DNA from: a virus | Virus record (IMG/VR): IMGVR_UViG_3300032163_000043 | Location: 1 to 40,109 of that record | Strand: one strand, 5' to 3' | Length of the DNA stretch: 40,109 nucleotides | Shown here: positions 16,963-40,109 of the stretch, piece after piece | Layout: every line of letters begins with the position of its first letter | How positions within the stretch are numbered: the stretch's first letter is position 1 | The notes under the pieces: generated by a model | Seen by the model: the letters and a program-made list of their open reading frames with translations, nothing else | The model's database searches: none | What the model was told of the DNA's origin: nothing | Program-made: the position numbers and the translations under genes

Positions 16963-16963
16963 T

Positions 16964-17025: not shown

Positions 17026-17026
17026 G

Positions 17027-18111: not shown

Positions 18112-18113
18112 CG

Positions 18114-19649: not shown

Positions 19650-19659
19650 GGAGACCACT

Positions 19660-22372: not shown

Positions 22373-22381
22373 GCTTCTGTC

Positions 22382-22588
22382 CTACCAGGGAAGGAAGCCG
22401 GGACAGCGCGGGGCAACCTGATAGATGCCTCCGCCGCCGCGTCTGAGGCTCTGGCTGGACTCTCTAGGTGCGGAGACGTAAGGCCCTTGCACGCACGTAC
22501 GCTCGTCGTACTTGTCGATTGCCGTCATGGCGACTACGAGCACCATGAGCAGCGCGGCCAGCACGAGCACGAGCGTCGCTTTCTTCAA
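22382..22588 (-). CDS. 68-aa membrane or secreted peptide, partner of the HExxH gene
   Basis: Starts at TTG 22588 and ends nine bases before the HExxH gene start, so the two form a leftward mini-operon. The N-terminus (KKATLVLVLAALLMVLVVAM) is a strong membrane anchor or uncleaved signal. The remainder (DKYDERTCVQGPYVSAP, RRGGGGIYQVAPRCPGF) has two cysteines. No good ribosome site is visible and only 12 bp separate it from the rightward gene at 22601, so any promoter must lie inside that gene. Confidence 0.5.
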   Translation of the reverse strand: MKKATLVLVLAALLMVLVVAMTAIDKYDERTCVQGPYVSAPRESSQSLRRGGGGIYQVAPRCPGFLPW

Positions 22589-22600
22589 GACAGGAGAAGC

Positions 22601-24037
22601 ATGACACAGAATCTGCTCACCCGCGAGCAGTGGGCGCAGAACCCAGCCTCACGGAAGCCCGGCGCGACATACGAGGGAATGGTCTCGTGGGTCACGAAGA
22701 CGCGCGCCAGGCGCGCCGCCGCACGCCTCGCCGCCGCCCCGGACGCGCTCGCCCCGACCCCCGAGAGCGCGATCACCGCTGTCCCCGCCGCCTACCAGCC
22801 CACCCCCCCCGCCGCTGTCCCCGCCGCCTACCAGCCCACCCCCGACAACGTCCTCGGCGAGCAGGTCTCCCAGAACGTGCATTCGCAACTTGACCCGCTG
22901 ATCGCGGAGATCATGCGTAGCACCGCGCAGCAGGCAGGGCAGATCGGCGGGCTAACCGACACGTACGCTGCCCGGCTCGCCCCGTTCGAGGGTGCCGCGA
23001 AGGAAAGGTACGCGACCGCCGCCGCCGGTAGCGCAGGGGTCGCACAGTCGCTCGCCGACCGGATGAGCGGTGCGGGTACCGACGCGGGAGCAGGCTTGCG
23101 CGCGAAGCTGGAAGCGATCAACGCGCCCGGCGCGCTCGTCGAGAACATCGCCGGTGGTGCCGCCGACTTCGGCCGCAACGCAGGCAACGCCGGCTACTCC
23201 ACCGACGCCTCCGCGTTGCAGGAGCTGATCGCCGCCGGCGCGACCGCGCAGAACTACGCCGGAGCGTTGCCGGGCCTCGCACGGCTCGAGGGGCAGCAGC
23301 AGGTCGGCAGGGCGCAGGGTGAGGGGCAACGCCAGATCGGTGAGGTTCGCTCCAGGATCCCCGGTATGACGGCTGATCTTCTCGCGGGCGCGCGCGCGAC
23401 TGAGCTTCAGAAGGCCGGGTTGGCCGCTGACTTCGTTTCGGGGAACCGAGACACTGAGCTGAAGAAGGCAGAGTTGGCCGCCGGTCTGACCGAGAGCGCA
23501 CGCAATCGCGAGGTCACTAAGGCGACCGTCAGGACGTCGCGGGAGATCGGATTGCAGAAGTCGGAAGCGGACAGGCTGAAGGCGGAGGCTGACGCTAAGG
23601 CGGCCGCCGACAAGTCCGCGCAGTCATGGCAGAAGATCCAGCAGACCGGAGACAGGCTGAAGCTCCAGGCGAGCAACGCCTCCTTCAACCAGGGGATCGC
23701 GGCGGCCAGGGTCAACCTGTCGCAGAAGCAGTACGGGCTGGCGCTGCAGCGGGAGGCGCGGTTGGCGAAGGGGAAGGGCAAGGGCGGGTTCACCGCCGCG
23801 CAGCTCGTCGATATGCAGGCAACGGCATACGACACCGCACTCTCCGCCTTCCAGGGCTCCTACCGGGACAAGAACGGCAATCAGGTGACGATCGACCGGA
23901 AGAGCGCGACCGAGGTCCTCAATGATCTGCTCGGTCACGGGACTCCGTTGAGCATCGCGCTCAAGGCGGTGAAGCGGCTCGGCAGCCGCCCGGACGCTCC
24001 GCCCGACTGGCAGGTCGCTACCGGCTGGATCAAGTAG
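22601..24037 (+). CDS. Helical internal virion protein, 478 aa
   Basis: ATG 22601 behind CAGGAGAAGC. Residues 60-90 repeat AAYQPTP with Pro/Ala linkers. The centre is a long Ala/Gln/Lys-rich helical region (RATELQKAGLAADFVSG, RDTELKKAELAAGLTES, LKAEADAKAAADKSAQS). The C-terminus has a small folded domain (SFQGSYRDKNGNQVTID-like, then VLNDLLGHGTPLSIALK). It resembles helical ejection proteins of short-tailed phages and sits directly before the largest one. Assignment rests on composition and order. Confidence 0.6.
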   Translation: MTQNLLTREQWAQNPASRKPGATYEGMVSWVTKTRARRAAARLAAAPDALAPTPESAITAVPAAYQPTPPAAVPAAYQPTPDNVLGEQVSQNVHSQLDPLIAEIMRSTAQQAGQIGGLTDTYAARLAPFEGAAKERYATAAAGSAGVAQSLADRMSGAGTDAGAGLRAKLEAINAPGALVENIAGGAADFGRNAGNAGYSTDASALQELIAAGATAQNYAGALPGLARLEGQQQVGRAQGEGQRQIGEVRSRIPGMTADLLAGARATELQKAGLAADFVSGNRDTELKKAELAAGLTESARNREVTKATVRTSREIGLQKSEADRLKAEADAKAAADKSAQSWQKIQQTGDRLKLQASNASFNQGIAAARVNLSQKQYGLALQREARLAKGKGKGGFTAAQLVDMQATAYDTALSAFQGSYRDKNGNQVTIDRKSATEVLNDLLGHGTPLSIALKAVKRLGSRPDAPPDWQVATGWIK

Positions 24038-27000
24038 ATGCCGGAGACCGTCCTCAGCCGCGCCGGGCGGGTGCTGCGACTCGCGCAGCAGAGGCCGTCC
24101 AAGTCGATCTACAGCAGGGACAGGCGCTCCCCGGATGTGCAAGACCGCGCGGCAGCGATCACGGCGACGAAGGCGAGGAGCGCCGCAGAACTGAAGCAGC
24201 TCGGCTTCCTCGGCGCGAGCAAGGCCGACAGGGAACGGCAGGCACGCGACCTTGCCAAGAGGATTCAGAAGGCGAACCCCGTACAGGCGAAGCCGGTCAG
24301 TCAGAAGGAAGCGTTCTACATGGCGGCGGCGAAGCCACAGACGATCGCCGGCTATGACCCGCTGAACATCCCCGGCGTCCGCTACGCGGCCGGGCAGACG
24401 CGCGAGGTTGCTGACGCGCTCACGCAATCGATCCCCGGCACGTTCGGCCTCGCCCGCGACCTGCTCGCAGATGTCCACTCCGGGAAGGTGTCACCGCTCG
24501 GCCTGCCCTCGCCGGGGTCGAAGACCGAGCGCAACCTGAAGGAGATGACGCGCTCCAACCTCGCTCTCCTCAAGGAGCCCTGGAAGCATCCGGCGTTGAT
24601 CGCGCTCATGTTCGGACGCCCGCTTACGGCCAGCGCGGCAACGGTGGCGTCCCGCGGGCTTGCGGCCGCCCGCGCCGCCGAAGCGGGCACTCCCGCGCTC
24701 CGTGCCTTGCTGACCAAGCCGAAGCCGGGGGAGGCTTTCGGAGAGCCGCGCACCTTCCGCTCCGGCGGCATCGAGACGCCGGGCAACTACTCGAAGGCCG
24801 CCGACATGGAAGCGTTCCAGCGCGCGGTGGACATCGTTCGCAAGCGGCATCCGAAGCTCGGCCTCTCCTCCGGGCCTGTTGTGACGCGCAACCTGCCCGC
24901 CCGTGTCGGCTGGGAACTCTCGCAGAACCGGAAGATCACGGATGCTGTCTCGTCCGCGGAGGCGCTCGGACTCGCTGCCAAGACGAAGCTCTCGAAGTTC
25001 CCGCGCAAGCGGCACGGGCAGCAGGTCGCACAGACCGCCGCTCGCGTCGAGTTCGAGGGTGCGACCGTGGCGGAACGGATCGCGTTGCATGAGCAGGTGA
25101 TGGCGACCGCCAAGTCCCCGGTGAAGCGCGCACGGCTAGCCCGCAAGATCGGCCTCTTGCAGCAGGCGCAGAAGCTCCTGGAGGCGACGCCCGGCGGGCC
25201 GCAGGTGAAGCTCTCGAACGCCGCCCTGCGCGAGTTGATGGCGAAGGCGGAGAAGGTCGCGGCCACGCGCACGGAGTCCCTGCTCGCGCGTGGGGCGATC
25301 AGCCCGGAGCAGGCAGCCTCCCGCGTGCAGGGGCCGGGGCGGATCGTGAAGGGCGCACGCTTCCTGTATCCGAAGGACGCAAAAGCCCGGCTACGTGAGA
25401 TCGACTCACAGATCAACGCTCTCGGGAAGTCTCGGATGACGGGCGTTCAACGTTTGAGCGACGTCCGAACTGGAACGCGCAGCACTCGCGCAGCGGAGCG
25501 CGGACTGTCCAAGGCCAACATCAAGGCCAAGCGTCTACTCATCGCGCCTGCCACAGCGGCTACAGCGCGTGAGGCGGCGACGGCGAACCGGGCTGCCGCC
25601 AAGGCGAGCGCTCTGCGCGCGAAGACCGCGGCGCTGGCGCAGCGCGGTGAGAAGCTGAAGCCGCTCTACGAGCGCGAGCAGCGGCTCGCCCAGATCGCCT
25701 ACGAGGGTTTCCAGGCCGGCCAGGTCGGGGAGGGTGTGCTCGCACGCTCGCAGGCACGCTTCGGCCGGATTCGCAAGGAATACGAGAAGACGGCGAGCGC
25801 ACTAATCGCGCACCGTGACGCGCAACTTCAGGGCTTGCAGGCGCTTGAGCAGCAGATCGCAAGTGAGGCGAAGATCGCAGCGGACAAGGCCGGCAACCGG
25901 GCGCAGGCTGCCGCGATCAGAGTCGCAGCCGAACAGCGGCTCAGGGAGACGGTACGGGAGCAGCAGCAGATCCTCCTCGATCAGAAGAAGGCGCTCGAGT
26001 CTCTCAGCGAGAGCGAGAATCTCGTGCGTGAGCTGCGCGGGCGCGTTGCAGCGTCGTCCGGCAGGCTTGTCGGTGCCGAGGGATACTCCGCGGGCAAGGT
26101 TCGCGTCCCCTACACGGCCCGGTATGAGCGCACACCGCTCGGCCGCATGTCGCTCGGCGCCGGAAAGGTGATCGGCCAGCCGCGCGAACTCGGCACCGTC
26201 ACGCACGCCTTCAAGGGCGAACGTCTCCTCAGCGGCAACTTCCGCGACGACGCGCTCCGCCTGATCGCCGAGGACGCGCTTGCCGAAACCCGGCAGACCG
26301 GCAAGCTCGCGTTCCGCGACCAACTCCTGAAGGCCGCAACGGCGGAGCGGCTGAACGAGCATCAGATCGCAATGCGCGTCGGCAAGCTCAAGGATCCTGC
26401 GGCCACACAGAAGATGCGAGACCTGCTCGCCCGGCCCGAGGACGTGCTCCCGTCGCCGCGAATGCGGGCCGCCACCGAGGGAGACCCGTTCAAGCAGGTG
26501 CGAGAGCTGATCTTCCCGACCGAACTGCACGGTATCCCGGTCGCTGAGATCCCCGCCGGCAGTTCGATCCCCGGTATCAAGTGGGTCGATGAGCGATACC
26601 TGGAGGGAGCGAACCTGCCGCCGATCGCTACCGGCGCGGCGGGTAGGCCCGGCCTGAAGCAGCTCGCCTGGACCGGGCACTCGATCAACAACGCGACCCG
26701 CCTCTCCTACTTCTACTTGGCGCTGAAGTACGGCACGCCGAACATCCTCGGGCAGATCTCCCTCAACTTCATCCAGGCCGGGGCGAAGGTGCCGCTCGCC
26801 TGGAAGCGTGCCGCCACGATCCACCGTGACTTCGGCGCCCGCGACGTCGGGGTTGTCCGTGAAGCGATGGGAACCGGCATCGGTCGCTCACTGCTCGGCT
26901 CGCAACGGGGCGCGCTCGGCTTCACGTCCTCGAAGCTCGCTGCCGCTTGGTCGGTCATCCTCGACGTTCCCTTCCGTGACACCGCCTGGGTCGCGGAGGC

Positions 27001-27859
27001 GTACCGGGCCGGGCACAAGACCGTTGAGCAGCAGAAGGCGCTGATCGACGCGGCGGTCTCCGGCGATGCCTCCCAGCTCGCGGACTTCATCCGCATCACA
27101 CGCCGCGCCCGCAATGAGATCCTCGACTACGAACGGCTAGGGCACGCCGAGCAGGCACTCAAGCAGCTCTTCTTCATCTACCCGTTCACGAAGGCGTCCA
27201 CGGTCTACGTCGGGCACTTCCTGGCCGAGCACCCGTACAAGGCATCGGTCGCGGCTACGACGGCGGAGAAGGGGAGCTCCGACCAGCAGAAGATCATCGG
27301 AGACGTGCCCGGCTTCCAGCGGGGCAACATCTGGTTCAAGGACGCGAAGGGAAACGTACGCACGTCGAACCCTGCCGCCTTCAGCCCGATCGGCCCCGGA
27401 GTGGACGTCTTGCGCTCGGCCGCCTCGCTCGTCGCGGGCGGCGGCAACGTGAACGATCTGCCCGCGCAATACATCCATCCGATGTTCCGGGCCGCACTCA
27501 ACGCAGCCTTCGGTGCCGATCCGACCACCGGCCGCAAGCTCGACCAGAGCCGGTCGGCCTTCGCCAACTTCCTCGACGAGATGATCCGCAACACGCCCCA
27601 GTTCGCGCTGGCGCAGGGACTCTCCGGCGCGAAGCAGGGGCGTACCGATGTCATCTTCCCGACCTCGCCCCGAGAGGCGATCAAGCAGTACGCGATCGGC
27701 GGGATTGTGCCGCGCAAGGTGAACCCCGGCGCTGTTCATGCCCGAGCGGCACGGGAGGCACCGCCGCTCCCGAAGTCCGGTGTGCGCGGGGGAGCGTCGG
27801 GGTCGAAGTCGATCTACGCGGGGCAGGGCAGCGGGTCGAAGTCGATCTACGCCAAGTGA
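24038..27859 (+). CDS. Large internal virion (ejection) protein, 1273 aa
   Basis: Starts at ATG 24038 directly after the previous stop. This is the largest protein in the window. It is mostly Ala/Lys/Arg/Glu helix with long coiled-coil stretches (residues about 430-760). A more folded C-terminal region follows (NIWFKDAKGNVRTSNPAAFS), with a hydrophobic patch (WSVILDVPFRDTAWVAEAYR, LFFIYPFTKASTVYVG). A peptidoglycan-cutting domain is not evident. The short motif SKSIY occurs near the N-terminus and twice at the extreme C-terminus. Size and position match internal core proteins ejected to form a DNA channel. Confidence 0.65.
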   Translation: MPETVLSRAGRVLRLAQQRPSKSIYSRDRRSPDVQDRAAAITATKARSAAELKQLGFLGASKADRERQARDLAKRIQKANPVQAKPVSQKEAFYMAAAKPQTIAGYDPLNIPGVRYAAGQTREVADALTQSIPGTFGLARDLLADVHSGKVSPLGLPSPGSKTERNLKEMTRSNLALLKEPWKHPALIALMFGRPLTASAATVASRGLAAARAAEAGTPALRALLTKPKPGEAFGEPRTFRSGGIETPGNYSKAADMEAFQRAVDIVRKRHPKLGLSSGPVVTRNLPARVGWELSQNRKITDAVSSAEALGLAAKTKLSKFPRKRHGQQVAQTAARVEFEGATVAERIALHEQVMATAKSPVKRARLARKIGLLQQAQKLLEATPGGPQVKLSNAALRELMAKAEKVAATRTESLLARGAISPEQAASRVQGPGRIVKGARFLYPKDAKARLREIDSQINALGKSRMTGVQRLSDVRTGTRSTRAAERGLSKANIKAKRLLIAPATAATAREAATANRAAAKASALRAKTAALAQRGEKLKPLYEREQRLAQIAYEGFQAGQVGEGVLARSQARFGRIRKEYEKTASALIAHRDAQLQGLQALEQQIASEAKIAADKAGNRAQAAAIRVAAEQRLRETVREQQQILLDQKKALESLSESENLVRELRGRVAASSGRLVGAEGYSAGKVRVPYTARYERTPLGRMSLGAGKVIGQPRELGTVTHAFKGERLLSGNFRDDALRLIAEDALAETRQTGKLAFRDQLLKAATAERLNEHQIAMRVGKLKDPAATQKMRDLLARPEDVLPSPRMRAATEGDPFKQVRELIFPTELHGIPVAEIPAGSSIPGIKWVDERYLEGANLPPIATGAAGRPGLKQLAWTGHSINNATRLSYFYLALKYGTPNILGQISLNFIQAGAKVPLAWKRAATIHRDFGARDVGVVREAMGTGIGRSLLGSQRGALGFTSSKLAAAWSVILDVPFRDTAWVAEAYRAGHKTVEQQKALIDAAVSGDASQLADFIRITRRARNEILDYERLGHAEQALKQLFFIYPFTKASTVYVGHFLAEHPYKASVAATTAEKGSSDQQKIIGDVPGFQRGNIWFKDAKGNVRTSNPAAFSPIGPGVDVLRSAASLVAGGGNVNDLPAQYIHPMFRAALNAAFGADPTTGRKLDQSRSAFANFLDEMIRNTPQFALAQGLSGAKQGRTDVIFPTSPREAIKQYAIGGIVPRKVNPGAVHARAAREAPPLPKSGVRGGASGSKSIYAGQGSGSKSIYAK

Positions 27860-27869
27860 GGGAGGCCCG

Positions 27870-28448
27870 ATGCCTGACACACAGGGACTCAGCCCGGCCT
27901 TCGCCGCTGCCCTGAACAAGCTTGTGGCCGCAAGTGGCGGCAGGGTGTGGATCAACAGCGGCTACCGCTCCCCCGAACGGCAGGCCCAGCTTTTCGCGGC
28001 GGCCGTGCAGAAGTACGGGTCTGAGGCTGCGGCGCGCAAGTGGGTCGCCCCGCCAGGACGGTCCCGGCACAACATGGGGCAGGCCGCCGACCTCGGCGGA
28101 GACATGAACCTCGCCGCCAGCCTCGCCCCGCAGTTCGGACTGTACCGGCCTATGAGCTGGGAGGACTGGCACTTCGAGCCGGTCGGGAGCCGTTCGGGAA
28201 CCCCTACGGATTCGGCGGCGCCCTCGTCGTTCGCCAGCCAGTTCGCAACGCCCACAAGTTCAGCGCAGCCTTCACCGCTCACCCGTGAGTTCGCCGCACC
28301 CGCACCGCAGCAGACTCCCGCCCAGCCGATGCCTGACGGCCGCGCTGAGTTCGCCTCCGGCCTGGTCGGCGCTATCCACGGCGGCAAGATCGACCCGCGC
28401 GAGCTTCTTCAGCTTGTGCTCGCGCGCCGCGCAGCGATGCAGCAATGA
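27870..28448 (+). CDS. M15 (VanY/D-Ala-D-Ala carboxypeptidase-like) peptidase
   Basis: 192 aa from ATG 27870 behind GAGGGAGGCCCG. Residues 1-105 hold the zinc peptidase: INSGYRS (R33), SRHNMGQAADLGGD with ligands H67 and D74, and SWEDWHFEP with H101 as third ligand and E98 as catalytic acid. The family cuts peptide cross-links of peptidoglycan. A Ser/Pro/Ala linker and a helical tail follow (DPRELLQLVLARRAAM). Its place after the internal proteins suggests a virion-borne enzyme for entry, though an endolysin role is possible. Confidence 0.85.
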   Translation: MPDTQGLSPAFAAALNKLVAASGGRVWINSGYRSPERQAQLFAAAVQKYGSEAAARKWVAPPGRSRHNMGQAADLGGDMNLAASLAPQFGLYRPMSWEDWHFEPVGSRSGTPTDSAAPSSFASQFATPTSSAQPSPLTREFAAPAPQQTPAQPMPDGRAEFASGLVGAIHGGKIDPRELLQLVLARRAAMQQ

Positions 28449-28490
28449 CCACCACCCGGCCTCCTGCGGTGGCCTAGAGAGGAGATCGCG

Positions 28491-28883
28491 ATGCCGTCCT
28501 CTGTCCGTGATCTGATCCTCCAGTTCGCGCAGCAGTCTCACGATGCCCCTCGTGAATATCCGAACGCGGGCCTGCTTCAGTCGGGGAACATCGACCTTGC
28601 CCATCGGCCTGTCCATAGGAATCCAGACGGGAACATCAGCACCGAGCGTTCGTTCTCGGTCGGAACCGACAAGGGCGAGCTATTGCTTCCGCTCATCGTC
28701 GGAGGCCGCGTCGTGTCGAGGGCAGAGGCACTCGCCCACTACCGCAAGACGGGTGAGCATCTGGGCATCTTCGACTCACCCGAGGCCGCCAACAGGTACG
28801 CCACCATTCTTCACTTTCAGCAGTGGAACCGCTATCTCGATCCGCAGCGCGCCGCGCGGGCCTTCCTAGAGAGGAGACCATGA
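28491..28883 (+). CDS. 130-aa phage protein with GNIDL...RKTGEHLGIF motif
   Basis: ATG 28491 behind GAGAGGAGATCGCG. The sequence NIDLAHRPVHRNPDGNIST, GELLLPLIVGGRVVS and LAHYRKTGEHLGIFDSPEAA matches a module I recall from many tail, internal-virion and lysis-region proteins of short-tailed phages, where it is often a domain of a larger protein. Here it stands alone between two peptidoglycan-cutting enzymes. Its biochemical role is not established. Confidence 0.65.
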   Translation: MPSSVRDLILQFAQQSHDAPREYPNAGLLQSGNIDLAHRPVHRNPDGNISTERSFSVGTDKGELLLPLIVGGRVVSRAEALAHYRKTGEHLGIFDSPEAANRYATILHFQQWNRYLDPQRAARAFLERRP

Positions 28884-29377
28884 TGCCGAAGTCAGCCCGT
28901 CTACGGGCGCTCGACTATGCCGCAAGCTATGTCGGCGTGAAGGAGAGCCCGCCCGGCTCGAACCGTGGCCCGCAGATAGACAAGTGGAACAAGGTGGCCG
29001 GGGTGCCGGTCGGCTCGCCATGGTGCATGGGCTTCCTCCGTGCGATGTTCAAGCTTGCGGGGGTGCAGCTCGGCGGCGGCGCGTCCGTCGGCTTCTTCGA
29101 GGAGTGGGCCGTCCAGCACGGCGAGCTCGTCGTCAGGCGTCCGTTCAAGGGTGACGTCGTCTGCTACCGCTTCGACTCCGACGACTGGCCCGACCACGTC
29201 GGCCTGGTAGAAAAAGTCCTGGCGCTGCGATGGAAGGGACAAGCATTCGTCGGCTGGGTTTCCGTAATCGAGGGAAATACTTCTCCGGGTGTCCGAGGAA
29301 GTCAGGCCAACGGAGGAGGCGTTTACCGTCGGCGGAGATGGATAGGGCGCGCTAAGTTCGTCCGCATTCCCGGTTAG
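28880..29377 (+). CDS. CHAP-domain endolysin
   Basis: 165 aa from ATG 28880 (a second ATG follows immediately), overlapping the previous stop. The CHAP fold shows GSPWCMGF with nucleophile C49, DHVGLVE with H106, and SVIEGNTS with E131/N133. CHAP enzymes act as peptidoglycan amidases or endopeptidases. There is no separate wall-binding domain and no signal peptide, so release would depend on the nearby holin candidates. The last third of the gene, from about 29208, uses noticeably more A/T-ending codons than the first part. Confidence 0.85.
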   Translation: MMPKSARLRALDYAASYVGVKESPPGSNRGPQIDKWNKVAGVPVGSPWCMGFLRAMFKLAGVQLGGGASVGFFEEWAVQHGELVVRRPFKGDVVCYRFDSDDWPDHVGLVEKVLALRWKGQAFVGWVSVIEGNTSPGVRGSQANGGGVYRRRRWIGRAKFVRIPG

Positions 29378-29391
29378 GGTTGGAGGTAGCC

Positions 29392-29988
29392 ATGCACACC
29401 ATGCAACGTGACATGAAGGCTGCTTATAACCGCGCCTATCACGCGGCGAACCGAGAGGCGATCCTTGCTCGTAAGCGCGCCTACCGCGCCGTCCATCGCG
29501 AGGAAATAGCTGCTTACGACCGCGTGCATAACGAGACGCACCGGGCAGAGAACGCCGCCTACATGCGCGCTTACCGCAAGAAGAACCCTGGAAAAGAGGC
29601 GGCTGCACAACGCGCCTGGCGCGAGTCGAATCCAGAAAAGATCGCCGCCTACAACGAGACCCACCGTGATGAGCTTGCTGCTCGCCAACGCGCGTATCAT
29701 GCAGCGAACCGTGAACGATATGTAGAGCACTGCGCTCTCCGCCGCGCCCGCAAAGCCGGCGCTCCTCGCGTCGAGAAGATCGACCGCAGCTACATCTACG
29801 AGCGCGATGGCGGCATCTGTCACATCTGCCGCAAGAAAGCCCCCAGACGCGGCTTCCACCTTGATCATCTCGTGCCGCTCTCCAAGGGCGGGGCGCACAC
29901 CCACGACAATCTGGCCGTAGCCCATGCGAACTGCAATCTGCGGCGCCATGACGGCCTTCTACCCGCGCAGCTTAGGTTGGTCGGATGA
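29392..29988 (+). CDS. HNH homing-type endonuclease with N-terminal repeats
   Basis: 198 aa from ATG 29392 behind TTGGAGGTAGCC. Residues 5-110 consist of about six degenerate 15-17-residue repeats with the pattern AYxRAYxxxNRE (AYNRAYHAANREAILAR, AYMRAYRKKNPGKEA, ARQRAYHAANRERY), a basic helical array likely to bind DNA. The C-terminal HNH has C143-x2-C146, LDHL with D158/H159, HDN with N173, H178 and C181. It sits between endolysin and holin candidates and is less G/C-ending than its neighbours, as expected of a mobile homing gene. Confidence 0.85.
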   Translation: MHTMQRDMKAAYNRAYHAANREAILARKRAYRAVHREEIAAYDRVHNETHRAENAAYMRAYRKKNPGKEAAAQRAWRESNPEKIAAYNETHRDELAARQRAYHAANRERYVEHCALRRARKAGAPRVEKIDRSYIYERDGGICHICRKKAPRRGFHLDHLVPLSKGGAHTHDNLAVAHANCNLRRHDGLLPAQLRLVG

Positions 29989-30182
29989 CAAACGGCTCGC
30001 ACATCACCCGCCCCGAGCTGGCCGCCGAGCTGCGTTCGGTGCGCTACGAGATGCGGCTGCTGATCGTCGGCTTGGTCGTCGTGCTCAAGCTCAACCTGCC
30101 CGACACGATCACCGTCCCCGCTGTGTCCGCGCTCGCGGTGAAAACGCTGTGGGCAGTAATCAGTTCCCGTCACATCGGCTAG
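29985..30182 (+). CDS. 65-aa membrane protein, possible holin or antiholin
   Basis: ATG 29985 overlaps the HNH stop as ATGA. After a polar N-terminus (TNGSHITRPELAAELRSV) come one strong hydrophobic segment (EMRLLIVGLVVVLKLNL) and one weaker segment (AVSALAVKTLWAVISS). Small membrane proteins directly after endolysin genes commonly act in lysis timing. It may pair with the next gene as holin and antiholin. Confidence 0.6.
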   Translation: MTNGSHITRPELAAELRSVRYEMRLLIVGLVVVLKLNLPDTITVPAVSALAVKTLWAVISSRHIG

Positions 30183-30191
30183 GAGAACCCC

Positions 30192-30383
30192 ATGAAGAGC
30201 AAGTACGCGCAGCTCCTCGAACGCAGTCTTTGGACATTCGTCCAAGCCGCCGCCGCCTCGATCATCGTCAGCCAGGGCTTCGGCGCCGATGTCTGGAAGG
30301 TCGCGGCTGTCGCGGGCGGGCTTGCCGTCGTGAAGTGCATCGTCGCGTTCCAGGTCGGCGACAAGAACAGCGCCGCGCTGTAG
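30192..30383 (+). CDS. 63-aa holin candidate (r1t-like character)
   Basis: ATG 30192 behind CTAGGAGAACCCC. The sequence LLERSLWTFVQAAAASIIVS followed by VWKVAAVAGGLAVVKCIVAF resembles the small two-segment holins of Gram-positive phages (LERTFWTFLQ-type start). Such holins accumulate in the membrane and release the endolysin at a set time. The C-terminus is short and charged. Confidence 0.7.
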   Translation: MKSKYAQLLERSLWTFVQAAAASIIVSQGFGADVWKVAAVAGGLAVVKCIVAFQVGDKNSAAL

Positions 30384-32415: not shown

Positions 32416-32660
32416 GCACCTGGGACGACGAAGCTGGGTATGACCGAAGTGACCCAAAGCATCCCTCGTGGCATGACCGGATGACTGACGTTTGGGATCT
32501 CCGCAACCGCGAAGCCCTGCTCTCGCATGATCGCGTGGCCGAGCAGGGGCCGGAGGAGGAGACGCGCTTCCCCTGCGACCTCGGCTGCGGCAAGGACTTC
32601 GCCTCCTCGTTGGAGATGGAAGTCCACCTGATTTGCGACCACGAAGGGGAGGCGGCGTGA
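32412..32660 (+). CDS. 82-aa C2H2 zinc-finger-like protein
   Basis: GTG 32412, coupled by GTGA. Residues 53-78 contain FPCDLGCGKDFASSLEMEVH followed by LICDH: Cys-x3-Cys, a hydrophobic core and His-x4-His, close to a classical C2H2 finger. The N-terminal part is charged with Trp residues. Small C2H2 proteins are seen next to phage recombination nucleases. A DNA-binding role is likely but not shown. Confidence 0.65.
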   Translation: MSTWDDEAGYDRSDPKHPSWHDRMTDVWDLRNREALLSHDRVAEQGPEEETRFPCDLGCGKDFASSLEMEVHLICDHEGEAA

Positions 32661-33463
32661 CCGCCCCACGTAACACGTCGAGCAGGGGCAGCAAGCGTCT
32701 CTACTCGTGGCGCGACGAGGCGTACTGGTCCGTGACGACGATCATCGGGGGCGGGGTGCCGAAGCCCGCGCTGCTCCCGTGGGGGATCAAGATGGTCGCG
32801 GAGGCCGCCGTCGAGATGGCGGACACGCTGCCGGCTATGGTCGCCGCTGATCGTGAGGGCGCGATCAGGTTCCTGAAAGGGTCGCCCTACGCGAAGCGCG
32901 ACAAGGCCGCCGATCTCGGCACGCTCGTTCACGAGGCCGCAGAAGCTCATGCGCTCGGCAGGCCGATGCCCCCGGTAACCGCGGATGTGCGCCCGTACCT
33001 CGACTCGTTCGAGCGGTTCCTCGCGGACTTCACCCCGGAGATCATCGCCACTGAGGCGAGCGTCTACAACCGCAGTGAGCACTACGCGGGCACGTTGGAC
33101 ATGATCGCCCGGCTGATGTTGCCGCAATCGGAGTGTCTTGTGCCGAAGACTTACATCCTCGATGCGAAGTCGGGCAAGGACGTCTACCCGGAGGTCGGCT
33201 TGCAGCTCGCCGCCTACCGGAACGCCGAGTTCATCGGTTTGCCGGACGGCTCCGAGGGGCCGATGCCCGCCGTGGACGGCGCGCTCGCCCTGCATCTGAC
33301 CGTGAACGGCTACCGGCTGATTGAGGTGCGCTGCGATTACGAGGTTTACCGGTCCTTTTTGTACGCCAGAGAAGTGTTCCGCTGGCAGGAGACCACGTCC
33401 AAGACCGTGCTCGGCGCTGAATACGGGGCGCTCGTGGAACAGAAACAGGAGGCGCTGCTGTGA
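32657..33463 (+). CDS. Cas4/RecB-family PD-(D/E)XK exonuclease
   Basis: 268 aa from GTG 32657, coupled by GTGA. Motifs in order: LGTLVHEAAEAHAL (H92), YAGTLDMI (D148), YILDAKSGK with the metal-binding D169 and K171, and QLAAYR (Q183/Y187), the complete RecB/Cas4 nuclease signature. No cysteine cluster for an iron-sulfur centre is evident. Phage proteins of this type process DNA ends for replication or recombination. It is coupled to the Cys-rich gp3-like protein, suggesting they act together. Confidence 0.88.
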   Translation: MTAPRNTSSRGSKRLYSWRDEAYWSVTTIIGGGVPKPALLPWGIKMVAEAAVEMADTLPAMVAADREGAIRFLKGSPYAKRDKAADLGTLVHEAAEAHALGRPMPPVTADVRPYLDSFERFLADFTPEIIATEASVYNRSEHYAGTLDMIARLMLPQSECLVPKTYILDAKSGKDVYPEVGLQLAAYRNAEFIGLPDGSEGPMPAVDGALALHLTVNGYRLIEVRCDYEVYRSFLYAREVFRWQETTSKTVLGAEYGALVEQKQEALL

Positions 33464-34674
33464 GCCCCGTCCTCGAGATCCAAAAGCGCATGATGCTACT
33501 CGGCCGCGTGCGCCTCGGGCAGAAGGGGCCGAAGGGGGAGCCTCAGAAGCTCGACCGCTTTCGCTTCACGTCGCCGTCCCGCGCGCTGCTCGAAGCGATA
33601 GCAGCCGCGCACGGTGGCGAAGTGACCGACTGGCAGGGCGCACCGGACGAGGGGTACTTCCAGGTGACGACGGACGCGACGCGACTCGACATCATCCTGC
33701 CCCCGGTGTTCTCGGATGTGGACGGCTCGCCGACGATGCCGTATTCGCAGTGGTTCGAGATGTGGTCGGCCGGGGGCTGTCTGCGTCGCTGCGACGGGGA
33801 GACGGAGGCGCTCAGCGGCAAGCCGTGCATGTGCGATCCGATCAAGCGGAAGGCGGGCGCGGCCTCCGAGTGCAAGCTGACGACGCGCGTCTCGTTCATG
33901 CTCCCGGACTTGCCCGGCCTCGGAGTGTGGAGGCTGGACTCGCACGGCTGGAACGCCGCCGTCGAGCTTCCGGGCACGCTCGACGTGCTCGCCCGCGCCG
34001 CGCACGAGCAGAAGTTCATTCCCGCCGTCCTCTCGATCCAGCATCGCACGAGCAAGTCCGAGGGGCAGACGCGCCGTTACATCGTCCCGGTGATCGAGTT
34101 GCCGGACGTGACGCTGCGGCAGCTTGCCTCCGGCGATGTGCCGCTGGCGCTGAACGCCCCGGTGTCGCGCCCATTGGAGCGTCCGGCACTCCCGTCGGGT
34201 GAGGCCGTGCTGCCCGCCGACGCTTCGTTCGATACCGGGCCGCGCGCGGAGTTCGGCGAGCCGCCCGCGCTCCCCGAAGTCTCGGCGCCCGCCCTCTCCG
34301 ACGCTGCTCCTTCCGGCGACTCGGATCGAGAGCCGGACGCGGCTGTCACCGCACCGGCAGCGGGCGCCGAGACCCCCTCCATCACCGCCGCGCAGGCGAA
34401 GAAGCTGAACGTCCTGATCGGCAAGCTCCGCGACGACCAAAAGCTCATCTCAACCGAGCAGCTCTACGGGAAGTGTCGGCGCGAAGGCACCGTCGGCGAG
34501 GACGGCCTGTTGCACTTCGGCCCGCTGCGCGACTCGCTCTCGAAGGACGAGGCGAGCGTGCTGATCGACTCGCTGGAGAAGTTCGAGGCTAACCTCGTCG
34601 GCGAGCAGGGGGCGTGGTTCGTGCAGAAGGCGCGAGAGGCGCAGGACAGGAAGGCACGGGCGGGCAAGCTGTGA
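33460..34674 (+). CDS. 404-aa gp3-like Cys-rich recombination-associated protein
   Basis: GTG 33460, coupled by GTGA to the exonuclease. Residues 1-245 contain EIQKRMMLLGRVRLGQKG, FEMWSAGGCLRRCDG, GKPCMCDP, ECKLTTRVSFMLPDLPGLGV and GVWRLDSHGWNAAVELPG, a pattern I associate with the phiC31 gp3-like family, some members of which are recombination directionality factors. Residues 250-330 are a disordered Ala/Pro/Glu linker. The C-terminus (ITAAQAKKLNVLIGKLRDDQ, SKDEASVLIDSLEKFEAN) is a small helical domain. With no integrase in view, a role with the exonuclease in recombination is equally plausible. Assignment is from memory without alignment. Confidence 0.5.
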   Translation: MSPVLEIQKRMMLLGRVRLGQKGPKGEPQKLDRFRFTSPSRALLEAIAAAHGGEVTDWQGAPDEGYFQVTTDATRLDIILPPVFSDVDGSPTMPYSQWFEMWSAGGCLRRCDGETEALSGKPCMCDPIKRKAGAASECKLTTRVSFMLPDLPGLGVWRLDSHGWNAAVELPGTLDVLARAAHEQKFIPAVLSIQHRTSKSEGQTRRYIVPVIELPDVTLRQLASGDVPLALNAPVSRPLERPALPSGEAVLPADASFDTGPRAEFGEPPALPEVSAPALSDAAPSGDSDREPDAAVTAPAAGAETPSITAAQAKKLNVLIGKLRDDQKLISTEQLYGKCRREGTVGEDGLLHFGPLRDSLSKDEASVLIDSLEKFEANLVGEQGAWFVQKAREAQDRKARAGKL

Positions 34675-35338: not shown

Positions 35339-35844
35339 CCACGCCGACCCATTGCGGCCATCCCGAGTCCGGCTTCGTGACCTCTGGAGAGGGCACGTCG
35401 TACTGCCCGGCGTGCGCGGACGAGTACGAGACGCGGCTGACCCCCGGTTTCGACGCTGGCATCGAGGTTGGCGGGACGACGCACCGGAAGCCTGACCTCA
35501 CCCCCGAGCGGATCGCGGAGCTGTCGATGTGCATGGACGCCGCTCCTGACCGCGCGTTCTGGCACGAGTACCACGACCTTGCCTTCGCCCTCCTCGCGGA
35601 GCGGGAGAGGCAGGGGGAGACTTTCAAGCGGCAGCTTCGCTTGGGAACCGAAGACGTGCGCCGCGAGCGCGATGCGTTGCGGGCCGAGAACGAACGGCTG
35701 CTGGCGGCGCTGGCGGGTGCCTACCGAGAGAGCGATCAGGCTGGGCGCGCAGCCATCGGCCGTCTGTGTGACGTGCATATTGATCGCTCCGGGGCGTTGC
35801 TGGGGCAGGTTCGCGCCCTTGCGGAAGGAGACACCGATGCCTGA
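35335..35844 (+). CDS. 169-aa mosaic protein with zinc-like N-terminus and DLTPER block
   Basis: ATG 35335, coupled by ATGA. Residues 1-33 have CGHPESGFVTSGEGTSYCPA with a third Cys, a likely zinc ribbon. Residues 54-63 are PDLTPERIAE, the same block that starts three downstream genes, encoded by the same DNA but here internal. A coiled coil (LLAERERQGETFKRQ, RRERDALRAENERLL) follows. The protein ends AEGDTDA in a junction cassette. It appears to be a fusion of modules found separately downstream. Confidence 0.6.
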   Translation: MTTPTHCGHPESGFVTSGEGTSYCPACADEYETRLTPGFDAGIEVGGTTHRKPDLTPERIAELSMCMDAAPDRAFWHEYHDLAFALLAERERQGETFKRQLRLGTEDVRRERDALRAENERLLAALAGAYRESDQAGRAAIGRLCDVHIDRSGALLGQVRALAEGDTDA

Positions 35845-36040
35845 GCCCACTGACACCCGCATCCGCCGCGACAACACGCGAGACGCCCTTGCGTTAGCCC
35901 GCGCCTACAAAGACGAGGACAGTGAGCGTGGGTTCCTCGCGCGACAGGTCGTCCGTCTTGTCGAGGAGGCCGAGTGTGTCTGCGGCGAGATCAACGCGCG
36001 CCATTGCCCCGTGCATCAGGAAGGAGCCCCCGATGCCTGA
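35837..36040 (+). CDS. 67-aa protein between junction cassettes (EGAPDA end)
   Basis: ATG 35837 lies inside a junction cassette; GGAAGGAG is the ribosome site and the preceding stop overlaps by 8 nt. The body (RIRRDNTRDALALARAYKDE, GFLARQVVRLVEEAECVCGE) is helical and charged with three Cys. It ends in the next cassette with QEGAPDA. Function is unknown. Confidence 0.6.
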   Translation: MPEPTDTRIRRDNTRDALALARAYKDEDSERGFLARQVVRLVEEAECVCGEINARHCPVHQEGAPDA

Positions 36041-36275
36041 CCTCACCCCCGAGCGTGTCGCGGAACTTCAATGGCGCATTGGTCGTGGCATCGCTCCTGC
36101 ATCCCCCGACGCCCTGGCGGCGCTCAACCTCTTGCTCCCCGCCCTCCTCGCGGAGCGGGAGAGGCTGCGGGGAATCTTGCGCGACGTGCTCGCGGATTCT
36201 GGAAGCGGAGGACTGTCGGTACACGTCATCTGGGCCATCGAGGCCGCTCTCACGGAGGAGGACACCGATGCCTGA
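36033..36275 (+). CDS. 80-aa MPDLTPER-family protein, copy 1
   Basis: ATG 36033 in a junction cassette. The first 45 residues (MPDLTPERVAELQWRIGR, then GIAPASPDALAALNLLLP, ALLAERERL) are nearly identical in DNA and protein to the gene at 36864. The rest (RGILRDVLADSGSGGLS, VIWAIEAALTEEDTDA) differs. The conserved part is helical, and the shared LLAERERL suggests a coiled-coil interaction segment. Function is unknown. Confidence 0.65.
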   Translation: MPDLTPERVAELQWRIGRGIAPASPDALAALNLLLPALLAERERLRGILRDVLADSGSGGLSVHVIWAIEAALTEEDTDA

Positions 36276-36723
36276 CCTCACCCCCGACCGGATCGGGGAG
36301 GCAAAGGCGCTGTCCTTCGATGCTCGGAGGCACGGCTACTTCGAGACGGCCGACACCATCGACGCCCTCCTCGCGGAGCGGGAGACGCTGCGGGAGGCGC
36401 TGCGGCTTCGGATGATCGAAGCGGGGCGTCACACGACAGAAGACCGTGACACCTACGCCGATGGGTTCTTCAACGGTCTGGCTGCCGCCCTCGATGAGTT
36501 CGACCGAACCCCCGCTCTCGCTGCCCCCACGGAAGGAGACACCTTCGAGAGTCACCCCGGCGTTGACCAATGCACCGCACAGCGCGTACATCCGCTCTCG
36601 TCTGACTACAAGGTGCGGTGCCAACTCGCCGCCGGGCACGCGGCGGATCACGTCAACGACGGCTGCAATTGGACGGACGCTTCGGCCTACGCGCTCCCCC
36701 CGGAAGGAGACACCGATGCCTGA
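36268..36723 (+). CDS. 151-aa MPDLTP-family fusion with an internal junction relic
   Basis: ATG 36268 in a junction cassette. Residues 1-90 (MPDLTPDRIGEAKALSFD, IDALLAERETLREALRLR, YADGFFNGLAAALDEFD) form one module ending APTEGDT, encoded by DNA that matches a junction cassette except that the start codon is lost. Residues 93-151 (GVDQCTAQRVHPLSS, VRCQLAAGHAADHVNDGC) form a Cys/His module that may bind zinc. It looks like two former genes fused at the relic. It ends PEGDTDA in an intact cassette. Confidence 0.65.
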   Translation: MPDLTPDRIGEAKALSFDARRHGYFETADTIDALLAERETLREALRLRMIEAGRHTTEDRDTYADGFFNGLAAALDEFDRTPALAAPTEGDTFESHPGVDQCTAQRVHPLSSDYKVRCQLAAGHAADHVNDGCNWTDASAYALPPEGDTDA

Positions 36724-36871
36724 CAGATGGAGGGCTATCGCGTTTCGCTATGCCGCCGCGTTTGGCGTGTACGCCGTCGTCCCTCGCTCATGGGGTTTGG
36801 CTGCCAACGTAGGGCTTCCGCTGCTGGCCTTTCTCGTTCTGATCCTTGCGGAAGGAGCCCCCGATGCCTGA
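36716..36871 (+). CDS. 51-aa membrane protein between junction cassettes
   Basis: ATG 36716 in a junction cassette. After MPDRWRAIAFRYA come hydrophobic stretches (AFGVYAVVPRSWGLAANVGL, LLAFLVLILAEG), consistent with two membrane passes. The C-terminal AEGAPDA is the junction-coded tail, which here directly follows a transmembrane segment. Function is unknown. Confidence 0.6.
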   Translation: MPDRWRAIAFRYAAAFGVYAVVPRSWGLAANVGLPLLAFLVLILAEGAPDA

Positions 36872-37274
36872 CCTCACCCCCGAGCGTGTCGCCGAGCTTG
36901 AGCGGCGCATTGGTCGTGGCATCGCTCCTGCATCCCCCGACGCCCTGGCGGCGCTCAACCTCTTGCTCCCCGCCCTCCTCGCGGAGCGGGAGAGGCTGAT
37001 TCGGGAACGCGACGAAGCCGAAGAGTGTGTTACGCAAGCGCACAAAGACAGCAACGGTCTGCGTCGCCAACGAGACGCCGCCCGCACTGCGCCATCTCCG
37101 GGTTTCTTGGACGACGTGCGTGTGCTCATCACCGACTACTACTCGGGGCTGCCCGAGCACCGTGAGCCGGCTATGGCGGCTGCCGCCCGTTTGGACGAGA
37201 TCCTGAACGACGAGCACGGCAACCCTCGCGCCGCCGCTCTCGCTGCCCCCACGAAGGGAGACACCGATGAGTGA
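36864..37274 (+). CDS. 136-aa MPDLTPER-family protein, copy 2
   Basis: ATG 36864 in a junction cassette. Residues 1-45 duplicate the gene at 36033 (five base changes, clustered in codons 9-13). A coiled-coil extension (RERDEAEECVTQAHKDS) and a second helical block follow (FLDDVRVLITDYYSGLPE, MAAAARLDEILNDEHG). It ends LAAPTKGDTDE in a variant junction where the next gene starts with ATGAGTGA. Function is unknown. Confidence 0.65.
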   Translation: MPDLTPERVAELERRIGRGIAPASPDALAALNLLLPALLAERERLIRERDEAEECVTQAHKDSNGLRRQRDAARTAPSPGFLDDVRVLITDYYSGLPEHREPAMAAAARLDEILNDEHGNPRAAALAAPTKGDTDE

Positions 37275-37545
37275 GCCAACGATCAGCCTGCGGGACTTGC
37301 TGAAGAGGCCCGTCACGAGGCGGCGGAGTCTCTACTTCGTTGAACTCGACCCCGCCGAAGTCGCCGCGCTGGTTGAGGCGGTCGAGGCGCAGCTTGAGTA
37401 CGGCGAGGGCGGGCACTCCTGGCGCTGTGAGTACCGCACCGCCGAGAAGGGCTGGAAGGAAGGCGACCCGCCGATCATCGAGTGCAGGTGCGGACTTGAC
37501 CGCCTGTACGCCGCCCTCGCGCGCTTCACGGAGGAGGGGACGTGA
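37267..37545 (+). CDS. Hypothetical 92-aa protein
   Basis: ATG 37267 in the last, variant junction (GAAGGGAGACACCGATGAG). Residues 20-45 (RRSLYFVELDPAEVAALVEA) form a strand and helix. The C-terminal half has HSWRCEYRTAEKGWKEG and IECRCGLDRLYAALARF with three Cys. This may be a small zinc-stabilised fold. Coupled to the next gene by GTGA. Confidence 0.6.
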   Translation: MSEPTISLRDLLKRPVTRRRSLYFVELDPAEVAALVEAVEAQLEYGEGGHSWRCEYRTAEKGWKEGDPPIIECRCGLDRLYAALARFTEEGT

Positions 37546-37742
37546 GCGGCAAGCGACACCGGCACGAGTTCACCGCGCTCTGGTGGCACTTCGGGCCGTA
37601 CGGCCTGCAGGACATTCACGTTCACGGCTGCCTCGATGAGGAGTGCGATCGGGTGCTGATCGGGTCAGGGCGCTCGTGCGACGGCGCTCCTGCTTCGCAT
37701 CATCGCGAGACGCTATCTGCGCCCGCGGAGGCGTGCTCCTGA
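37542..37742 (+). CDS. 66-aa His/Cys-rich protein
   Basis: GTG 37542 overlaps the previous stop. The sequence is rich in His and Cys (GKRHRHEFTALWWHFGP, QDIHVHGCLDEECDRVL, CDGAPASHHRETL), pointing to a metal site. The stop overlaps the next start as TGATG. Function is unknown. Confidence 0.55.
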   Translation: MSGKRHRHEFTALWWHFGPYGLQDIHVHGCLDEECDRVLIGSGRSCDGAPASHHRETLSAPAEACS

Positions 37743-37828
37743 TGGCCGTCTGCCCGTGGTGTCTGATCCGTGGCCGTGTTGTCAGGGAGTGCCTGCTATG
37801 CAAGGGCTCGGGGCGAGCCTCCTCCTGA
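37742..37828 (+). CDS. 28-aa double CxxC peptide
   Basis: ATG 37742 overlaps the previous stop by 1 nt (TGATG). The product MAVCPWCLIRGRVV, then RECLLCKGSGRASS, has CxxC and CxxCxGxG, a minimal half of a DnaJ-type zinc domain. Its end repeats the DNA CTCCTGATGGCCGTCTGC that also began it, giving the next gene the same start. Probably a zinc-binding peptide. Confidence 0.55.
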   Translation: MAVCPWCLIRGRVVRECLLCKGSGRASS

Positions 37829-37971
37829 TGGCCGTCTGCGCGAAGTGCGGGCACGACGTGCGCCTCCACATGCCCGGATCGGTGTGCGGGCGGATGCATT
37901 GCTACTGCCGTGAGTTCGTCCCCACGCCCAGCCCCGCGCCTGCCCCCACGACGAAAGGAAGCGATGCGTGA
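37828..37971 (+). CDS. 47-aa Cys-rich peptide with MAVC start
   Basis: ATG 37828, same TGATGGCCGTCTGC start as the preceding gene. MAVCAKCGHDVRLHMPG and VCGRMHCYCREFVP provide five Cys and several His, consistent with one zinc site. A Pro/Ala tail follows. The stop overlaps the next gene by 8 nt, behind an AAAGGAAG ribosome site. Confidence 0.55.
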   Translation: MAVCAKCGHDVRLHMPGSVCGRMHCYCREFVPTPSPAPAPTTKGSDA

Positions 37972-38245
37972 CAGAGCCGAGACGGTCGAGGAGGTCGAAC
38001 GGATCATGCGGGCCGCGCTCCCGACCCCGTACGACGAGTTCTTCCCCGCCCACAGCCTCAACGTGGACGGTGTCCGGGACGTCGCGCTCAACTTCGCCGG
38101 CGCGAGCGCGCAGGGACGCTACCCCGACCTCTCCGCGCGCCGGCAGCGGGTGATCGTGCAGCACGTCGCGCAGGTGTTCCTCGCCGCGTTCGAGCTCGGC
38201 ATCCGCGTCCACGAAGAGACCGTCGAGGAAGGGACCCTGCCGTGA
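37964..38245 (+). CDS. Hypothetical 93-aa protein, start of the very G/C-ending segment
   Basis: ATG 37964 behind GAAAGGAAGCG. It is helical and acidic (ETVEEVERIMRAALPTPYDE, RRQRVIVQHVAQVFLAAFEL, ending HEETVEEGTLP). From this gene rightward almost every codon ends in G or C, unlike the preceding genes. No family is recognised. Coupled to the next gene by GTGA. Confidence 0.65.
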   Translation: MRDRAETVEEVERIMRAALPTPYDEFFPAHSLNVDGVRDVALNFAGASAQGRYPDLSARRQRVIVQHVAQVFLAAFELGIRVHEETVEEGTLP

Positions 38246-38742
38246 AGGACACACCGCTCGTCGGCGCCGTCGACCTGTCCGGTCTGAAGGAAGGCCTCGG
38301 CCCACGGGAGGCCGCCGCGTTCCGAGACGAGCTGATGATGATGGCGCAGACCCGTGAGCTCGCGCTCCGCGACCGTGTCACAATCAGCGCTGAGAACGAA
38401 GGGCTCACCCGCGCTCTCGCCGCGCTCGTCTACCGGTACGGCACCGACGATGGGGCGGGGAAGTGCTACCTGACGATCGACCATGACGAGTTCCACGACG
38501 CGATGAGCCGGGTCGCCGCCTTCTCGCTCGACCCGGGCTCCCAGCATCTGCATCTGGTCGTCACGCTCCGCTTCGACGGGGAGTGGACGGTGTCCGTGGA
38601 CGAGCCGTGCGAGGACGACCTGGACACGCTCGAGCGGTTCGAGGCGCCGCCGGATGTCGTCACGAGCCCGGGCGGGTGGCGGATCCTCGTGCCGACCGCG
38701 CTCGGCTGGCGCGTCGCCACCTGGGCACCCGGGGAGGCGTGA
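38242..38742 (+). CDS. Hypothetical 166-aa protein
   Basis: GTG 38242, coupled. The N-terminal half is helical (GPREAAAFRDELMMMAQTRE, NEGLTRALAALVYRYG). The C-terminal half is strand-rich (SQHLHLVVTLRFDGEWTVSV, GGWRILVPTALGWRVATW). No catalytic motif is seen. The stop overlaps the next start as TGATG. Confidence 0.65.
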   Translation: MKDTPLVGAVDLSGLKEGLGPREAAAFRDELMMMAQTRELALRDRVTISAENEGLTRALAALVYRYGTDDGAGKCYLTIDHDEFHDAMSRVAAFSLDPGSQHLHLVVTLRFDGEWTVSVDEPCEDDLDTLERFEAPPDVVTSPGGWRILVPTALGWRVATWAPGEA

Positions 38743-38936
38743 TGGAGAACCGCACGGTACGGGTGGACTTCCGGGCGACACCGACGCAGAAGGCCCGCTG
38801 GCGGCAGGCGGCGACCGCGCTCGGGCTGAAGGAACTGGCGGACTTCTACCGGGACGCGATCGACGGCTTGGCCGACGTCGTTCTCGCCCCGCCCGTGTCC
38901 GACCGTCCCTCAAAGGTGCTATCGTCCGAAGAGTGA
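38742..38936 (+). CDS. 64-aa ribbon-helix-helix-like protein
   Basis: ATG 38742 behind GGGGAGGCGTG, overlapping the previous stop by 1 nt. RTVRVDFRATPTQKARWRQA and ALGLKELADFYRDAIDGLA give a strand and two helices with the pattern RVxxTxxQKARWxxAA, as in RHH regulators and plasmid mobilisation accessory proteins. As the last gene before a terminator and the second terminase, it may regulate that module. Confidence 0.65.
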   Translation: MENRTVRVDFRATPTQKARWRQAATALGLKELADFYRDAIDGLADVVLAPPVSDRPSKVLSSEE

Positions 38937-38999
38937 GGTGTCCGCCGCCTGACGGCGACCTCCGCGGTCTGCGCTGAGCCGTCCCTGTGGCGGCTCTTC
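38935..38999 (+). terminator. Two-hairpin terminator before the second terminase
   Basis: First hairpin: GAGGT (38935-38939) with ACCTC (38958-38962), enclosing CGCCG/CGGCG. Second: GAGCCG (38976-38981) with CGGCTC (38991-38996), a 9-nt loop and TTCG after it. The U-tract is poor, so termination may need both structures or be partial. Confidence 0.5.
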
Positions 39000-39002
39000 G
39001 CA

Positions 39003-39031
39003 TTGTGGCCGTCCGTCTGAGCGTCTACCCT
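39003..39031 (+). promoter_or_regulatory. Candidate promoter of the second terminase module
   Basis: TTGTGG (39003-39008), a 17-nt spacer and TACCCT (39026-39031). The start would fall at about 39038, next to ATG 39039, again giving a leaderless message; no ribosome site precedes the gene. The match is moderate. Confidence 0.4.
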
Positions 39032-39038
39032 TCCGGTG

Positions 39039-39461
39039 ATGGGCGAGAAGACCGACAACGTCGTGCCGATCGGGAACGGCCTGGTCGGCAAGAACGGCAA
39101 GCCGTTGCACGGTGCGGCCGGCCGGAAGCTCACCCCTGAGCAGATCGAGCAGCTGCAGGCGGCACGGCGGGCGAAGGCCGAGGAGACCGGGGACCATCAC
39201 GCCGGCTTCGGAGGTCGTCGCCGCCGCCCGCGCATCTCCGATGTGACCGAAGACGCGCTCAAGAAGCTCGAGCCGCGCGCGCTGCAGGTGATCGAGGAGA
39301 TGCTCTACGACGAGGACGTGAAGATCCGCCGTGACGGCGCGTTCCGGCTGCTCGCGTACACGAAGGGGCAGCCGACGCAGCGGGTCGAGACCGACCATGT
39401 CGAGCGGATCGAGTACGTGCTCGCCGAGCACGAGCCCGCCCCGGTCGCCTCCGGTGAGTAG
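39039..39461 (+). CDS. terS: Terminase small subunit (module 2)
   Basis: 140 aa from ATG 39039 (GTG 39036 is directly before it). The N-terminus is basic and Gly-rich (KNGKPLHGAAGRKLTPEQIE), followed by a charged helix. The C-terminal half (DALKKLEPRALQVIEEMLYD, VKIRRDGAFRLLAYTKGQPT, QRVETDHVERIEYV) has the repeated-helix pattern ending GxPTQRVE seen in small terminases. It shows no similarity to the small subunit at 5890. The end overlaps the large-subunit start by 8 nt, which supports the pairing. Confidence 0.75.
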   Translation: MGEKTDNVVPIGNGLVGKNGKPLHGAAGRKLTPEQIEQLQAARRAKAEETGDHHAGFGGRRRRPRISDVTEDALKKLEPRALQVIEEMLYDEDVKIRRDGAFRLLAYTKGQPTQRVETDHVERIEYVLAEHEPAPVASGE

Positions 39462-40109
39462 CACCGTCTCCGACAAGAAGACCCTCCGTGTCGTTGACAC
39501 ATGGACGCGGGCGGGGATCACCCCGAACCCGAAGCAGCGGGAGTTCGCGGAGGTCTGCGAGGAGGCCGGGGCGGAGGAGGTCATGTTCAGCGGCTCGATC
39601 CGTGCGGGCAAGTCGCAGGCGGCCGCGAAGAAGCAGGTGCGCTGGGCGTGGGAGTACCCGGGCACCACCCACCTTGTCGTCCGGCGCACGTACCCGCAGC
39701 TGCGCGACTCGACCTGGCCGCTGTTCAAGAGCGGCGACGGTGGGATGCCCGCCGCGATCCCCGACGAGCTGATCGCGCAGACGAAGATCGGGGACTGGGA
39801 GATCCACCTGAAGAACCGGTCGAAGCTGATCTTCCGTTCCGCCGACGACCCGCAGGAGGCGATGAAGAACGTCCGCAACGTCACCCTCGCGAGCATCTTC
39901 GTCGACCAGATCGAGGAGTTCGACCGGGACGCCGACCCGGAGCTGTACGAAACATGGCTGTCGCGGCTGTCGGATCCGCGCGGGCCGCGGAAGCTGATCG
40001 CGGTCGCGAACCCCGGCCCGACAACGCACTTCGCGTACAAGCGCTTCCATCCCGACAGTGACGAGCGGGAGCCGCAGACCCGGTTCATCAACGTCACGAT
40101 CTACGACAA
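39454..40109 (+). CDS. terL: Terminase large subunit (module 2), cut by right edge
   Basis: GTG 39454, overlapping the small subunit stop; open to the right edge with 218 codons visible. The ATPase shows Walker A GSIRAGKS (47-54), an arginine-rich strand VVRRTYPQLRDS, Walker B IFVDQIEEF (D151), and a coupling motif VANPGP (184-189). The nuclease half would lie beyond the window. The Walker A sequence and surroundings differ from the large subunit at 6407, so this is a second, unrelated packaging ATPase, not a duplicate. Confidence 0.88.
   Translation, partial: MSSTVSDKKTLRVVDTWTRAGITPNPKQREFAEVCEEAGAEEVMFSGSIRAGKSQAAAKKQVRWAWEYPGTTHLVVRRTYPQLRDSTWPLFKSGDGGMPAAIPDELIAQTKIGDWEIHLKNRSKLIFRSADDPQEAMKNVRNVTLASIFVDQIEEFDRDADPELYETWLSRLSDPRGPRKLIAVANPGPTTHFAYKRFHPDSDEREPQTRFINVTIYD

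Follow-up and report, generated by a model that had tools for sequence, protein, structure and literature searches.

Two terminase pairs in one virus record: most probably an assembly chimera of two single-motor phages

How does a single viral contig come to carry two sets of genes for DNA packaging? The window analysed here, which spans a whole virus record, linear and 40,109 bp long, encodes one complete terminase pair and, 33 kb further on, the beginning of another. Two annotated large-terminase genes per genome have been described before, namely as tandem homologous genes in the Xanthomonas jumbo phages XaC1/XbC2 (PMC11273794) and as one terminase split into two coding sequences in phiPDS1 (PMC10773633). 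The window shares this count with them, but its genes belong to two distant packaging modules, whereas those of XaC1/XbC2 are adjacent homologues and those of phiPDS1 the parts of a split terminase. As we argue in the following, the record is very probably a chimeric metagenome contig, in which one phage (phage A, the bulk of the window) runs into another (phage B) via a block of genes common to both; it would then be an ordinary assembly chimera and not a two-motor virus. The features of the window are:

1..1206, minus strand: small genes of phage A with A-like codon usage, two of which weakly resemble minus-strand early genes of phage B
1515-2159, plus strand: HNH endonuclease, phage A (Pfam HNH, E 4e-13)
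2152-2886, plus strand: replication-initiation-like protein, phage A (PHROG 1408, E 5e-20)
5713-6576, plus strand: reading frame of the small terminase subunit TerS1, phage A (PHROG 4102, terminase small subunit, E 1.9e-8)
6407-7990, plus strand: large terminase subunit TerL1, phage A, complete, 527 aa (Pfam Terminase_6N, E 2.5e-10; PHROG 979, E 1.3e-50)
9813-11810, plus strand: portal protein, phage A, P22-like, a weak match (PHROG 156, E 1.1e-8)
15709..30383, plus strand: head, tail and lysis genes, phage A (blastp against phage B, PHROG, Pfam)
30192-30383, plus strand: r1t-like holin, phage A, within the late-gene region
32657..34674, plus strand: early genes for an exonuclease (PHROG 298, E 2.5e-39) and a Gp3-like recombination directionality factor (PF18897, E 2.8e-40), with A-like codon usage
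35586..37942, plus strand: block of small, repeat-bounded genes common to phage B, with A-like codon usage in both contigs
37943..40109, plus strand: phage B segment, about 99.5% identical to positions 32893-35059 of the reverse complement of the phage B contig (G005), with B-like codon usage
39039-39461, plus strand: putative small terminase subunit TerS2, phage B type, 140 aa
39454-40109, plus strand: large terminase subunit TerL2, phage B type, 218 codons, open at the contig end (Pfam Terminase_3, E 3.3e-10; PHROG 2, E 1.8e-14)

Both terminase pairs correspond to genuine reading frames, according to the list of open reading frames and to profile searches against Pfam and PHROG. The original prediction of a second pair in this window is borne out by these family matches and by the differing Walker A motifs, GGSAGGGKS in TerL1 and GSIRAGKS in TerL2, which belong to an N-terminal ATPase domain present in both proteins. 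TerL2 likely starts at the GTG at 39454; the start of TerS1 is uncertain, its PHROG 4102 domain match covering approximately 5965-6342. TerS2 matched no family in the profile searches and is probably the small subunit, a name given for its position and its overlap with the start of TerL2. The two pairs had also been described as unrelated. For the small subunits this holds, in that a blastp comparison of the window with phage B found no similarity between TerS1 and TerS2. The large subunits, by contrast, align with 22.8% identity over 509 aa (blastp, E 3e-14) when the complete TerL2 is taken from phage B, and with about 23% identity they are distant homologues. The record does not, moreover, contain two complete terminases in one genome: TerL2 stops after 218 codons, and a C-terminal RNase H-like nuclease domain, which would lie beyond the end of the window, is missing from the record. 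The copy of TerL2 in phage B matches PHROG 5653 (E 2.2e-9), and its match to Terminase_6C is sub-threshold (E 0.008).

Used as a query against viral contigs, TerL2 gave one near-identical match, in the 43,487-bp contig IMGVR_UViG_3300036760_000354, which we refer to as phage B. There, TerL2 is complete with 493 aa and 99% identical to that of the window, and TerS2 is identical. On the 3' side of TerL2 follow a portal gene, whose product is 31% identical to that of the window, and then fibre-like genes; the other end of the contig carries a gene in the position of the capsid gene, further head and tail genes and endolysin homologues, in the same order as in the window. Phage B also encodes RecT, a helicase loader and a DprA-like protein. 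When searched with TerL1, its contig returned TerL2 as the sole match. Phage B thus has the appearance of an almost complete, permuted genome that encodes one motor, and it differs from the window in having a single terminase and in carrying its early genes on the opposite strand. The idea that the owner of TerL2 might be a satellite is ruled out by the self-sufficiency of phage B, which brings along a portal, tail genes and a capsid-position gene as well as an endolysin homologue, RecT and a helicase loader. A complete second phage genome beginning at 37.9-39.1 kb had been named as an outcome that would refute the original suggestion. In effect, this is what the near-complete phage B provides, since it has a portal, a capsid-position gene and tail genes of its own. 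The window itself contains no second portal or capsid gene.

Phage A, in turn, reads as an actinobacteriophage-like tailed phage with its own TerS1, TerL1 and portal. Its head and tail genes are syntenic with those of phage B as far as 29.4 kb, and the genes that the two phages have in common show 22-46% amino acid identity, with the exception of a fibre-like stretch at 12.4-14.8 kb (72-86%). At the left end, the weak blastp pairs are W_558_923_- with G5r 26606-26818 and W_1012_1215_- with G5r 28785-29345 of phage B; for the early genes of the right arm (30.8-35.6 kb), phage B has no counterpart. Promoter and terminator scans gave results at chance level. Independent support comes from IMGVR_UViG_3300036766_000552 (L002), a 7-kb contig from a different metagenome (3300036766), which matches positions 6,554-12,370 of the window, TerL1 and portal included, with about one mismatch and has a portal that is 100% identical at the amino acid level. 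Because this match is nearly perfect, phage A with TerL1 and portal can be regarded as a real phage. L002 diverges from the window only in the fibre-like segment at 12.5-13.4 kb (about 72%).

More distant relatives of this packaging module are L003 and L004, where a terminase of the TerL1 type, 51-52% identical to TerL1, is followed by an A-type portal. In a comparison of TerL proteins, TerL1 also has homologues in the HMO-2011-type podoviruses Pelagibacter HTVC104P and Roseobacter CRP-345 and in Arthrobacter DrYang, with 31-36% identity over about 85% of its length. An alignment search with the portal recovered L002 and phage B as its sole relatives among viral contigs, which are too few for counting terminases per genome.

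Several further observations concern the gene content of phage A. The fibre-like segment at 12400-13450 shows about 69-73% identity among the window, L002 and phage B, while its flanks in L002 are identical to those of the window, which marks it, on the sequences compared, as a variable cassette within the phage A population. Just 5' of TerS1, the product of the gene at 4402-5313 combines CxxCxGxG zinc motifs of the DnaJ type with a helix-turn-helix at its C-terminus and is possibly a late regulator. At 24038-28448, the gene for a 1273-aa virion-type protein precedes a distinct peptidase/endolysin-like gene; the counterpart of the peptidase part in phage B is the C-terminal end of a single 1561-aa protein. 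Lastly, the Gp3-like recombination directionality factor (33460-34674) adjoins the exonuclease gene and is related to proteins of Streptomyces phages. The window showed no serine integrase, and no relatives of the directionality factor-like and replication proteins were found among viral contigs.

Against this background, the right end of the window stands apart. From 37,939 to 40,109 it is 99.4-99.5% identical to phage B at the nucleotide level, with 11 substitutions in the 2.14 kb from 37,943. This identity of about 99.5% over the final 2.2 kb is out of line with the rest of the comparison between the two phages, because their structural genes, the fibre-like stretch aside, share only 22-46%. 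Codon usage, expressed as a log-odds score trained on the late genes of phage A against those of phage B, switches from A-like to B-like at 37.94 kb, while the GC content of the window alone leaves no mark at the join. A-like scores were obtained throughout for the stretches at 1-5.9, 28.4-30.8, 30.8-35.3 and 35.3-37.9 kb, whereas the score at 37.9-40.1 kb (+0.053) exceeds that of every same-length stretch tested from the A core (maximum +0.018) and falls in the middle of the range for phage B; as the stretches share sequence with one another and cannot count as independent, we take this as a strong hint, short of a formal test.

Between the two parts lies the shared block. Parts of the region 35,587-37,966 are 98.6-99.8% identical to phage B and include exact stretches of 446 bp and of 1,082 bp (36,885-37,966). 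The left edge of the block is a 26-bp repeat at 35,586, and across it the reading frame is unbroken and the same small-gene family is found on either side. Gene content differs between the two versions: an 831-bp unit between 95-bp repeats is present in the window and missing from phage B, and the window lacks an 85-aa gene of phage B, the gap coinciding exactly with a 24-bp repeat. The exact stretches (about 1.6 kb) are free of mismatches, as compared with 0.5% in the right flank, which suggests a separate and recent history for the block. That the block is A-like in codon usage in phage B too suggests real exchange between such phages. The tiny-gene array as a whole (35335-37970, and 30885-32900 in the reverse complement of the phage B contig) encodes proteins with a common start, MPDLTPERVAEL, a middle ALLAERER and an end GDTDA, and has repeated ribosome-binding-site and boundary boxes, exactly at which the gene content of the two phages differs; it looks like a case of distantly related phages exchanging cassettes at boundary repeats. 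DNA-pattern searches with the block, its left part and the flank for a third contig carrying the block or the A-side flank returned phage B or nothing.

These findings suggest how the record may have arisen. Phages A and B would co-occur in related samples and carry the small-gene block in almost identical form. An exact stretch of 1,082 bp is longer than short reads and the k-mers of assemblers, so that an assembler would be able to cross from A to B, most likely by entering the block from A and leaving it into B. The product would be one contig with the complete motor of A and the beginning of that of B, each phage having one motor, with phage A extending from 1 to about 35.6-37.9 kb and phage B covering 37.94-40.11 kb and possibly the preceding block too. 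Shared near-identical regions are known to cause chimeric viral contigs, which made up less than 5% of contigs of at least 10 kb in a simulated benchmark (PMC5610896). In those chimeras, too, two genomes were joined at a long, highly similar stretch, with the difference that they were measured in simulated data, while the present case is inferred from the comparison of contigs. Both parts of the window also recur separately in other contigs: 37.94-40.11 kb lies in phage B, which has no TerL1, and 6.55-12.37 kb lies in L002, which at 7 kb is too short to show that TerL2 is absent from phage A.

The window is the one place where the block is seen beside phage A sequence; we infer that the block belongs to the genome of phage A beyond this record and that the join is an assembly error and not real DNA. 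The join most likely lies within the block (35586..37942). If the block belonged to phage B only, the join would fall at the 26-bp repeat at 35,586, which is shorter than usual k-mers, and real recombination or an amplification chimera would be favoured. There may be a further join near 30.7 kb, as the early genes from 30.8 kb onwards are those without a phage B counterpart. In all these placements, TerL2 comes from a packaging module of the phage B type.

An assembly artefact is not the only way to arrive at such a record. The frame kept across 35,586 within one small-gene family, the boundary repeats, which suggest natural cassette exchange, and the loss of the 85-aa gene exactly at a repeat, which looks like natural variation, would all suit a real recombinant, that is, a phage A lineage that has taken up B's small-gene block together with TerS2 and all or part of TerL2, so that one genome would have a working packaging module and a second, perhaps broken one. 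We nevertheless consider it unlikely, given that TerL2 ends with the contig and nothing is seen beyond, that viral-contig and DNA-pattern searches found the combination of phage A with TerL2 in no other contig, that codon usage changes at 37.94 kb and that the final 2.2 kb almost equal the sequence of phage B, which occurs as a phage of its own. Its stricter form, a real phage A recombinant that gained TerS2 and TerL2 by exchange at the shared block and now has two distantly related packaging modules, is decidedly improbable.

We give still less credence to the idea that A and B sit in a bacterial chromosome as tandem prophages or as a cointegrate. The recombination directionality factor does suggest a temperate phage, but the window contains no tRNA, and neither an integrase nor a bacterial gene was seen among the genes examined; this earlier proposal therefore finds no host DNA to lean on. 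The order of A late genes, small early genes and B TerS/TerL also shows no evident left end or attachment region of B, and searches of a collection of genomes from 84,980 species found no relative of the portal and a single MAG contig (L019) with a relative of TerL1 and no further gene in common. Slimmest of all are the chances of a satellite or a larger phage with two true packaging motors, options that had been singled out earlier as potentially new. It is the two terminase pairs on a single contig that speak for it, yet phage A is itself equipped with a complete set, the window lacks a second portal or capsid gene, and phage B is self-sufficient, so that neither a two-motor phage nor a fusion of helper and satellite finds support. 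What remains of the options raised originally is the chimeric contig, which agrees with TerL2 being the sole terminase of phage B and with the near-identity of the last 2.2 kb to that phage.

If a genome with two motors did exist, one would have to ask how the one portal of a procapsid chooses between them. The chimeric reading instead disposes of a misleading candidate for a two-motor phage, and it suggests that the presence of two terminases in the same viral contig is a useful flag for chimeric records in public virus collections.
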